Of a stretch of DNA of 64,000 bases, positions 31,981 through 38,927 are shown one piece after another. Source of the stretch: Prochlorococcus sp. MIT 1307 (GTDB lineage Bacteria; Cyanobacteriota; Cyanobacteriia; PCC-6307; Cyanobiaceae); the NCBI RefSeq assembly GCF_034092395.1, contig NZ_CP139301.1, positions 434,001 through 498,000 on the forward strand, written 5' to 3'. The first letter of the stretch is position 1. Every line of letters begins with the position of its first letter. The notes beneath the pieces are model-generated. The model saw only the letters and a list, made by a program, of their open reading frames with translations, had not been told where the DNA came from and searched no databases. The position numbers were made by a program, and so were the translations under genes.

Positions 31981-32074
31981 GAATCTGATCTTTACCAGCC
32001 TATAAACCTCGACCAATTATTAAAAATGAATCCACTTTTGACCAGCCCATGAACCTCGTTGAATTAGTAAAGGA
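31981..32074 (+). repeat. Diverged 47-bp direct repeat over the ycf51 start
   Basis: Two adjacent 47-base copies (31981-32027 and 32028-32074) match at 33 of 47 positions by eye without gaps. The best-conserved parts are GAATC, ACCAGCC, AACCTCG and AATTA. The second copy contains the ycf51 ATG (32049); the matching position in the first copy reads ATA. The period is not a multiple of three, so the upstream copy cannot be read as a simple protein extension. Confidence 0.6.
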
Positions 32075-33164
32075 GTCCACTCAATGGTTCTTCTGGCTAA
32101 GCCTAGGTCTAGGTTTGGCTACCATGCTCTCTTTCTTAATAGGGTGGGGGATAAAGTTTCGCCTTGTTGGTGCAACGGTTTTCAGCCTTTTGCTCGCCAC
32201 CAGCTGTTGGGCATTTACAGCCAGCTATAACCCTCCTTTTTTGAAAGAAGGAGCCCAATATGCTCCAATAGTTTTTGATAATGGTTATGACCTCGTCGTC
32301 GCCCAAGCTCCAGAGGATTTCACTGAAGAAGCCGTTCTACCAACGTTGGAGCAAATAGCAGCCAACCTTAAAGGAGGGGGTAGAAGTGACGCAATGGTTC
32401 ATGTCCGCATTAGGAAGTTAGAAACAACAAGAATGGGAGTAACTACTCCAATAGTTTTAGGAGAAGTTGTTAGAGACATAAAAAATAATCGCACCATCTT
32501 TTTGAATGATCTCAACGATGAAATTCCTTCTCATGCCCTCTCCCCTCAAGACCAGGTAGCTGATCTCAACGATGAAATTCCTTCTCCTACCCTCTCCCCT
32601 CAAGACCAGGTAGCTGATCTCAACGATGAAATTCCTTCTCCTACCCTCTCCCCTCAAGACCAGGTAGCTGATCTCAACGATGAAATTCCTTCTCCTACCC
32701 TCTCCCCTCAAGACCAGGTAGCTGATCTCAACGATGAAATTCCTTCTCATGCCCTCTCCCCTCAAGACCAGGTAGCTGATCTCAACGATGAAATTCCTTC
32801 TCCTACCCTCTCCCCTCAAGACCAGGTAGCTGATCTCAACGATGAAATTCCTTCTCCTACCCTCTCCCCTCAAGACCAGGTAGCTGATCTCAACGATGAA
32901 ATTCCTTCTCCTACCCTCTCCCCTCAAGACCAGGTAGCTGATCTCAACGATGAAATTCCTTCTCCTACCCTCTCCCCTCAAGACCAGGTAGCTGATCTCA
33001 ACGATGAAATTCCTTCTCCTACCCTCTCCCCTCAAGACCAGGTAGCTGATCTCAACGATGAAATTCCTTCTCCTACCCTCTCCCCTCAAGACCAGGTAGC
33101 TGATCTCAACGATGAAATTCCTTCTCCTCCTTCAAAGAACAGATGGAGTTTTAAAAACTATTGA
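32049..33164 (+). CDS. Ycf51-like protein with an expanded 18-residue tandem repeat tail
   Basis: The first about 155 residues match Ycf51 (DUF2518), a cyanobacterial and algal plastid protein of unknown function. Two hydrophobic segments near residues 13-55 (WFFWLSLGLGLATMLSFLIG and LVGATVFSLLLATSCWAF) precede a domain with VVRDIKNNRTIFLND. Then follow 11 exact-length 18-residue units (LNDEIPSPTLSPQDQVAD and a variant with HA for PT) plus a partial twelfth, ending in PSKNRWSFKNY. Ycf51 normally ends about where the array begins, so the 200-residue tail is an addition. It is acidic and Pro/Ser/Gln-rich and probably disordered. ATG 32049 fits the family. Next gene begins 10 bp downstream. Confidence 0.88.
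   Translation: MNLVELVKESTQWFFWLSLGLGLATMLSFLIGWGIKFRLVGATVFSLLLATSCWAFTASYNPPFLKEGAQYAPIVFDNGYDLVVAQAPEDFTEEAVLPTLEQIAANLKGGGRSDAMVHVRIRKLETTRMGVTTPIVLGEVVRDIKNNRTIFLNDLNDEIPSHALSPQDQVADLNDEIPSPTLSPQDQVADLNDEIPSPTLSPQDQVADLNDEIPSPTLSPQDQVADLNDEIPSHALSPQDQVADLNDEIPSPTLSPQDQVADLNDEIPSPTLSPQDQVADLNDEIPSPTLSPQDQVADLNDEIPSPTLSPQDQVADLNDEIPSPTLSPQDQVADLNDEIPSPTLSPQDQVADLNDEIPSPPSKNRWSFKNY
32508..33128 (+). repeat. 54-bp tandem repeat array inside ycf51
   Basis: Eleven consecutive 54-bp units run from 32508 to 33101, followed by half a unit to 33128. Only one kind of variation is seen: units 1 and 5 read CATGCC (His-Ala) where all others read CCTACC (Pro-Thr). All remaining positions, including synonymous ones, are identical, pointing to recent expansion or homogenisation. 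The period is a multiple of three, so the frame is kept whatever the copy number. Confidence 0.98.
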
Positions 33165-33174
33165 AATTTAGAGA

Positions 33175-33576
33175 ATGGAGAAACCACTCAATGATTTGCC
33201 ACAACATTTCCATGAAGAGGAAAAACAACTTCGAGCCCTAGGAATTCACAACTGGCTTTCACTCAATTCTCTTAAAGAAGAAGAACTATTAATTCTTGCT
33301 CAAAAAAGCCGCGCAACCACCAGAAACCTCAAACGACTTAGAGGCATGGCAAGACTCATTTGTGAGATCAACCTTTCTCAATCAGAGGCTGCTTTGCTAT
33401 TACATGCAGGAATCGCATCAACAAAAGCATTGGCATCATTGACACCTCAAGAATTGATTCGCAAAACAGGTCGACTGGAACGACAATTGAATACGGGGAA
33501 AGAGCCTTTTGTGGATCTCCCAAAAGCCCAAAAATGGATAAAAATTGCAAAAAGGGCAAATTCAGAACTGACCTAA
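33175..33576 (+). CDS. DUF4332 family protein (helix-hairpin-helix-like)
   Basis: Small soluble protein of 133 aa of the DUF4332 type, which consists of paired helix-hairpin-helix-like units. Visible units are ALGIHNWLSLNSLKEEELLILAQKS and LLLHAGIASTKALASLTPQELIRKTGRL, the second with the typical A-G-I-x-S-x-x-x-L-A pattern of nucleic-acid-binding HhH folds. ATG 33175 lies 10 bp after ycf51, so it shares that transcript. No enzymatic residues are visible. DNA binding is suggested by fold resemblance only. Confidence 0.8.
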   Translation: MEKPLNDLPQHFHEEEKQLRALGIHNWLSLNSLKEEELLILAQKSRATTRNLKRLRGMARLICEINLSQSEAALLLHAGIASTKALASLTPQELIRKTGRLERQLNTGKEPFVDLPKAQKWIKIAKRANSELT

Positions 33577-38051: not shown

Positions 38052-38927
38052 ATGGAAGAATCCTATTTCAATAACAAATCAGACCTTCAAGATCCTTGGT
38101 CAGTAAAAGCAAAGAATCCAGAGCCTTCCGACAAAGATGAAACTAAAAATACTCTCGCTGAAGGTAATGTCTCAAAGGAGAGTCAAGCTGAAGCCCCCTC
38201 CTCTCTAGTTGATTCCAATCAGGGACCACAACTTGAAGACCCCTCCTCTCTAGTTGATTCCAATCAGGAACCACAACTTGAAGACCCCTCCTCTCTAGTT
38301 GATTCCAATCAGGAACCACAACTTGAAGACCCCTCCTCTCTAGTTGATTCCAATCAGGAACCACAACTTGAAGACCCCTCCTCTCTAGTTGATTCCAATC
38401 AGGGACCACAACTTGAAGACCCCTCCTCTCTAGTTGATTCCAATCAGGAACCACAACTTGAAGACCCCTCCTCTCTAGTTGATTCCAATCAGGAACCACA
38501 ACTTGAAGACCCCTCCTCTCTAGTTGATTCCAATCAGGAACCACAACTTGAAGACCCCTCCTCTCTAGTTGATTCCAATCAGGAACCACAACTTGAAGAC
38601 CCCTCCTCTCTAGTTGATTCCAATCAGGAACCACAACGTGAAGAGCCCTCTTCAGTGGTGAGCTTTACTACCAAGACCAAGAGGAATGGCAAAGTCCTGC
38701 AAAAAAACAATCCCAATCAATTCAACAAAAAGAATAAATTCATTTCAAACGAGACAAACAATACCGAAGTTCTATTTGACTACAAAAGGAAACCAGGTGT
38801 TAAACAGTCCTCATTTAACATAAGAAGAATACTACCAAAAAGCCTTACAAATACAAAGTTTGTCCTTCAACTATTTGGTATTATCATCCTTCTCTACTTC
38901 TTAAGAGTATTCTTCTTGGTGTTTTAA
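38052..38927 (+). CDS. Unknown C-tail-anchored protein with ten 15-residue repeats
   Basis: Unrecognised 291-aa protein. Residues 1-46 are polar; residues 47-196 are ten 15-residue units (PSSLVDSNQEPQLED and close variants) rich in Asp, Glu, Gln and Ser. A basic stretch follows (TKTKRNGKVLQKNNPNQFNK), and the C-terminus is one membrane helix (FVLQLFGIIILLYFLRVFFLVF) ending at the stop codon. This predicts a cytoplasmic, disordered spacer tethered by its C-terminus. ATG 38052 has an AAAGGAA site upstream. It stands alone between glgB and hemE with 222 and 306 bp on either side. Function unknown; I know no family for it. Confidence 0.8.
   Translation: MEESYFNNKSDLQDPWSVKAKNPEPSDKDETKNTLAEGNVSKESQAEAPSSLVDSNQGPQLEDPSSLVDSNQEPQLEDPSSLVDSNQEPQLEDPSSLVDSNQEPQLEDPSSLVDSNQGPQLEDPSSLVDSNQEPQLEDPSSLVDSNQEPQLEDPSSLVDSNQEPQLEDPSSLVDSNQEPQLEDPSSLVDSNQEPQREEPSSVVSFTTKTKRNGKVLQKNNPNQFNKKNKFISNETNNTEVLFDYKRKPGVKQSSFNIRRILPKSLTNTKFVLQLFGIIILLYFLRVFFLVF
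38190..38639 (+). repeat. 45-bp tandem repeat array
   Basis: Ten exact-length 45-bp units run from 38190 to 38639, followed by a decayed partial unit (EEPSSVVS in protein). Units 1 and 5 carry GGA (Gly) where the others have GAA (Glu). Unit 1 also begins with GCC (Ala) and unit 10 ends with CGT (Arg). No synonymous difference is seen among units. The pattern indicates very recent copy-number change. Confidence 0.98.

Follow-up and report, generated by a model that had tools for sequence, protein, structure and literature searches.

The ycf51 gene of Prochlorococcus sp. MIT 1307 (hereafter MIT1307) ends in a long run of nearly identical 54-bp units, which raises the question of how this protein came to carry such a tail and whether the tail serves any purpose. 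In Synechocystis, Ycf51 is a photosystem I (PSI) assembly factor that has its C-terminus on the cytoplasmic/stromal side and binds PsaC and Ycf3, and ycf51 knockouts contain little PSI (PMC11062422, PMC11449065). The locus was analysed within a window of 64,000 nucleotides (contig NZ_CP139301.1, positions 434,001 to 498,000), the features of which are collected in Table 1, and compared with picocyanobacterial relatives.

Table 1. Features of the MIT1307 window around ycf51 (positions count from the first nucleotide of the window).
Feature	Position	Strand	Description	Basis
ycf51	32049..33164	+	371 aa, ATG start	ORF list; PF10726 profile match
Ycf51 core domain	32049..32498	+	Two TM helices (aa 3-31, 36-59) and soluble domain	AlphaFold2; conserved across relatives
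54-bp tandem array	32508..33128	+	11 full units and a half unit (27 nt), encodes (DLNDEIPSPTLSPQDQVA)n	Tandem Repeats Finder; unit listing
Ycf51 tail C-terminal end	33129..33161	+	PSKNRWSFKNY, with genus-conserved N[R/K/N]WSF	Comparison with G005 and G002
Antisense ORF through the ycf51 array	32457..33089	-	210 aa; not proposed as a gene	ORF list
DUF4332 gene	33175..33576	+	Downstream of ycf51; 3' synteny marker for the tail	PF14229, E=2.6e-28
Host ORF of the 45-bp array	38052..38927	+	291 aa, between glgB and hemE; C-terminal hydrophobic helix	
Second in-frame array	38189..38650	+	45 bp x 10.3, acidic EDPSSLVDSNQEPQL	Tandem Repeats Finder; unit listing

Residues 1-142 of the protein match the PF10726 (DUF2518) profile with E=1.5e-39 (135 bits against a cut-off of 25), and the profile is covered in full (positions 1-145 of 145). 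An AlphaFold2 model built from 33 sequences gives pLDDT values of 88-96 for residues 1-150, where the two helices are followed by a mixed alpha/beta region, and of about 35-55 from residue 160 on, where secondary structure is almost nil. MIT1307 Ycf51 is therewith predicted to combine a domain modelled with confidence (1-150) with a disordered tail, and the model shows the layout of the Ycf51 family, two N-terminal TM helices and then a soluble domain. The preliminary description had already suspected the disorder, which agrees with tail pLDDT values that stay below about 55, but its picture of Ycf51 as a short two-helix protein holds only for the helices, as there is also a soluble domain, about 90 residues in length (AlphaFold2; PMC11449065). 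A sequence search found no solved homologue of the domain, and a fold search with the full model gave no significant match.

Tandem Repeats Finder calls the array at 32507-33128 with a period of 54, 11.5 copies, 98% matches and a score of 1216. Read in frame, the unit is DLNDEIPS[PT/HA]LSPQDQVA; it is present in 11 full copies, and the first 27 nt of a twelfth also match, after which it diverges. Two nucleotides set units 1 and 5 apart from the remaining nine (CCTACC to CATGCC); both changes are non-synonymous (PT to HA), and the number of synonymous differences among the units is zero. Head-to-tail in-frame units of this kind are beyond chance, since none of 200 codon shuffles equalled the repeat of this tail. 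Both the array of 11 nearly identical units and the lack of synonymous change had been reported in the preliminary description, and the array lies exactly where it was placed there. By kind it is an intragenic coding minisatellite of the VNTR type, with near-identical in-frame units and a structure that differs between relatives. The simplest reading of the HA variant, present in units 1 and 5, is that a block of four units was duplicated once, and the events would then have been larger than one unit. The antisense ORF would be a mechanical outcome of the 54-bp period. Searching viral contigs with a 24-bp piece of the unit gave no exact match, the sole match of the unit as protein in the MIT1307 genome was an unrelated KKAAAE array, and the collection of papers that was searched contained none on repeats in ycf51.

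The array might in principle have been produced by assembly or sequencing, and tandem repeats are a known source of assembly error (PMC6868369). MIT1307xe, which belongs to LLVII, was isolated at station ALOHA from a depth of 150 m (PMC11559063), and its genome is one closed contig of 2,032,419 bp, obtained by PacBio RS II at 317x with 21-28 kb libraries and polished (PMC11559063 Table 3). Such libraries easily span an array of just 622 bp, so an artefact is unlikely. Moreover, the isolate MIT1341, which shares its seawater enrichment of origin with MIT1307, also has an array at the same spot of its closed genome, built from a different unit: (DEETSLNS)x6, 24 bp x 6.2. Taken together, we regard an artefact as hardly credible. 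No array was found in ycf51 of MIT1300. The identical units of MIT1307, the unrelated array of its sister isolate MIT1341 and the lack of any in MIT1300 fit the proposal of recent expansion or homogenisation.

Arrays at this position are not confined to these two isolates. In-frame arrays at the 3' end of ycf51 are found in 11 low-light Prochlorococcus species, and their units are nearly all unrelated. Nine of the 45 tails of at least 25 aa have a tandem repeat that was beaten by 0 of 200 codon shuffles, with periods of 54 bp (MIT1307), 57 bp (L086), 42 bp (L090), 45 bp (L196), 39 bp (L075), 48 bp (L067), 54 bp (G005/L034), 51 bp (L021) and 36 bp (L064); MIT1341 and G102 complete the 11 species. 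G102 belongs to the GTDB genus of MIT1341 and carries (IIEPNE)x4 (18 bp x about 4). Two further members of that genus are G149/L086, with a unit of 19 residues, and G128/L076, with no repeat, so the unit has been replaced within one genus. On a tree of the Ycf51 domain, which is poorly resolved, the ten repeat-bearing rows need 9 changes, of which well supported branches alone force 6. The process is thus recurrent, with MIT1307 as its most extreme case. The preliminary description had noted neither this recurrence across lineages nor the role of Ycf51 in PSI assembly.

The one exception to the unrelatedness is found in the genus of MIT1307, where G005 carries 54 bp x 1.9. At the best register its unit and that of MIT1307 agree at 30 of 54 positions, which none of 5000 shuffles equalled, and they have the core AATGATCTCA in common. 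Apart from this pair the units are unrelated, with periods of 18, 24 and 36-57 bp. The tail had been described as acquired by MIT1307, which we revise: most low-light relatives already carry a tail, and in G005 a 54-bp unit that can be aligned with that of MIT1307 is present twice, so that a pre-existing tail was amplified and not newly acquired.

One could imagine that the array is a multivalent scaffold, in which a short linear motif in each 18-residue unit recruits a partner such as PsaC, Ycf3 or a chaperone and the copy number sets the avidity. The near-identical units without synonymous change would fit this, as would their Pro/Ser-rich composition and predicted disorder (AlphaFold2), and cyanobacteria do have repetitive disordered scaffolds in CsoS2, according to parts of PMC11365436. 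However, recent duplication alone explains the identity of the units, and no motif is common to the units of related species. The latter makes a scaffold less likely than a tail tolerated without function (see below), and we consider it quite improbable.

The recurrence was set against the background of neighbouring genes in 80 loci (L033-L112, 1,169 kb) that were picked for the Ycf51 domain and not for repeats. Six of the seven arrays in this set (Tandem Repeats Finder, period at least 24, score at least 80) lie inside ycf51 as against 0.24 expected (p=1.2e-8), where ycf51 makes up 3.5% of the sequence and the neighbouring genes, rather than the whole genome, serve as the reference. The 3' end of ycf51 is a repeat hotspot in low-light Prochlorococcus, which is a new finding.

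We also considered whether MIT1307 is simply repeat-rich throughout its genome, of which about 864 kb were sampled (the window and 40 stretches), 800 kb of them outside the window. Outside the window, dense arrays occur at 3.8 per Mb. In six other Prochlorococcus genomes that were sampled the density is 5-15 per Mb, and in two GC-rich relatives it is 0. The MIT1307 value is no higher than that of the other Prochlorococcus and lends no support to a genome-wide explanation. The earlier view that tandem repeats of this size are rare in picocyanobacteria needs to be divided: in-frame arrays of at least three copies are found at about 4-15 per Mb in the sampled Prochlorococcus, but arrays of at least 10 units of at least 45 bp were seen in this window alone.

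While the Ycf51 domain is conserved among the picocyanobacterial relatives (about 45-71% identity), the tail is not. The longest is that of MIT1307, with 228 aa after residue 143, and in the other relatives examined the protein ends 2-86 residues past the domain. In the most divergent clade (23 rows), Ycf51 stops at about 147 aa and is essentially tail-less, and the tail is therefore dispensable for the core function. This clade includes MIT9201 and MIT9401, which we take to be high-light strains. In another clade, all 18 rows have a tail that is 36 aa long, and the lineages outside these two clades, MIT1307 apart, have tails of 10-86 aa. In the 36-aa-tail clade dN/dS is 0.40 for the tail vs 0.07 for the domain, which points to a loosely constrained tail; the value of 0.40 is also compatible with weak constraint.

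Such data bring up the main rival explanation, namely that the tail has no function and is tolerated as neutral, a disordered end prone to slippage in which arrays come and go unhindered. A tail-less clade and many short-tailed lineages are what one would expect from it, as are the extreme sequence turnover and a dN/dS about 6 times that of the domain in the 36-aa-tail clade, and similar arrays are found in other low-complexity segments, e.g., the N-terminus of FtsY and Gly-rich RNA-binding proteins. The fixed length of 36 aa in all 18 rows of that clade speaks against it. So does the frame, as all array periods are divisible by 3, which has a probability of about (1/3)^11 by chance.

A further argument against a purely neutral end comes from the tip of the tail in the genus of MIT1307. 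Only one of the seven other members compared (G005) reads through ycf51; the contigs of G003 and G004 end, from the 5' side, inside the tail or just at its start, and that of G002 ends from the 3' side, just upstream of the DUF4332 gene and inside the last ycf51 codons. Contig breaks on both sides are what is expected for repeats in short-read assemblies, which is circumstantial evidence, and single-cell assemblies that break at ycf51 hide variation. The tip reads PSKNRWSFKNY in MIT1307, EQNNWSFNKY in G005 and IKNKWSFKRNN in G002, i.e., NxWSF is kept in all three same-genus species with a readable 3' end.

The composition of the tails is far more uniform than their sequence. Net negative charge is found in 44 of the 48 tails of at least 20 aa (mean -0.15 per residue) and in 10 of the 10 arrays tallied. 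A charge of -0.1 per residue is reached by 85% of the tails vs 1% of the C-terminal 40-residue segments taken from other long ORFs of the same loci, counted mechanically. In MIT1307 the tail contains 47 acidic residues and 5 basic ones, and its net charge of -42 confirms the acidity that had been noticed. Such a strong charge bias across unrelated tails also speaks against the neutral explanation, and from the sequences compared the charge and frame of the tail appear constrained and its sequence nearly free. The acidic composition might nevertheless partly reflect the tolerance of any disordered cytoplasmic tail. Overall we see the neutral explanation as possible, but clearly not the more probable one.

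We think instead that the array is probably a length-labile, composition-constrained acidic tether on Ycf51, which arose from slippage or unequal recombination. Short stretches in the disordered tail would be duplicated in frame by replication slippage or RecA-type unequal recombination, and such duplication would repeatedly create, replace and homogenise tail units across low-light Prochlorococcus. Selection would keep the frame and an acidic, Ser/Thr/Pro/Leu/Ile-rich composition, and hardly the sequence. The tail begins right after the soluble domain on the cytoplasmic face, where Ycf51 meets PsaC and Ycf3. Its most likely role would therefore be that of a flexible negative tether or bristle of evolvable length, which may tune the local encounter with PSI assembly partners, and in the genus of MIT1307 its tip also displays the conserved NxWSF end motif. 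The suggestion of a length-variable spacer in the preliminary description is supported in this respect. A bolder version, which we consider unlikely, is that the ycf51 tail acts as a contingency-like length dial for PSI assembly, with a copy number that varies within populations and is selected along light or iron gradients, and that lineages without the need dropped the tail.

Several other proteins of these genomes carry arrays. The 291-aa ORF with the 45-bp array in the window has no Pfam match, and at the glgB-hemE site most relatives have a short intergenic gap only. The homologue in G002, of the same genus, is about 119 aa long and free of repeats, and the contig of G004 starts inside the gene. 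It is a separate gene with the same mode of evolution as ycf51. In both window arrays the variant unit stands at positions 1 and 5, as if they had grown to four units, doubled and grown again; this may be coincidence or reflect a common step size of about 200 bp.

Elsewhere in MIT1307, an 18 bp x 51 array, (KKAAAE/D)n, is followed by a C-terminal hydrophobic helix (L002 1205-2117; G000:C1 about 1,545,500) and adjoins an ORF resembling alanine racemase. A giant RTX-like (GGxGxD-type) protein has 294- and 432-bp repeats (L124 1-7389). A second family, with one N-terminal TM helix and an acidic or Pro-rich C-terminal tail, has different arrays in MIT1307, MIT1300 (TPVAEP x16), MIT1223 (13 aa x7) and G017 (about 4 copies), at L250 1-271, L282 18390-18671, L141 10263-10531 and L306; the MIT1307 member is only weakly similar. 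Its mode of evolution is that of Ycf51. The FtsY-like protein of two sampled genomes has N-terminal arrays with the units KAEQL/KAEEL and KQEEQ, respectively (L283 1878-2051, L293 1861-1982). Pfam matches to DUF963 and Lysostaphin_N, which are repeat regions of other proteins, were discounted as due to low complexity.

The ycf51 tails form a natural series that differs in length and unit and is alike in charge, on a recently recognised PSI assembly factor of abundant phototrophs. With this series one can ask whether PSI biogenesis is tuned by a disordered tail and whether streamlined genomes gain heritable variation from coding minisatellites.

Synechocystis Ycf51 (Sll1702) belongs to the same family (PF10726/DUF2518) and, as in MIT1307, has a pair of TM helices and a C-terminal domain on the cytoplasmic side, whereas the repeat tail of roughly 215 residues is a feature of MIT1307. 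The nearest worked example of an in-frame repeat tract in a membrane protein is tolA of E. coli, for which passages of PMC3477136 report that the intragenic repeat number alters stress phenotypes and that contraction is RecA dependent, with a frequency of 6.9e-5. What differs between strains in tolA is how many copies a single tract has. In ycf51, by contrast, the unit itself has been replaced from one species to another, while position and charge persist. TolA resides in the periplasm, another compartment than that of the Ycf51 tail. For the variable-number tandem repeats of M. tuberculosis, parts of PMC12817950 describe a phase-variable copy number, whereas ycf51 was compared between species, with one genome each. 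CsoS2 of alpha-carboxysomes is, like the Ycf51 tail, disordered and highly repetitive, but conserved motifs drive assembly in CsoS2 (PMC11365436), whereas the units of Ycf51 are not conserved between species.
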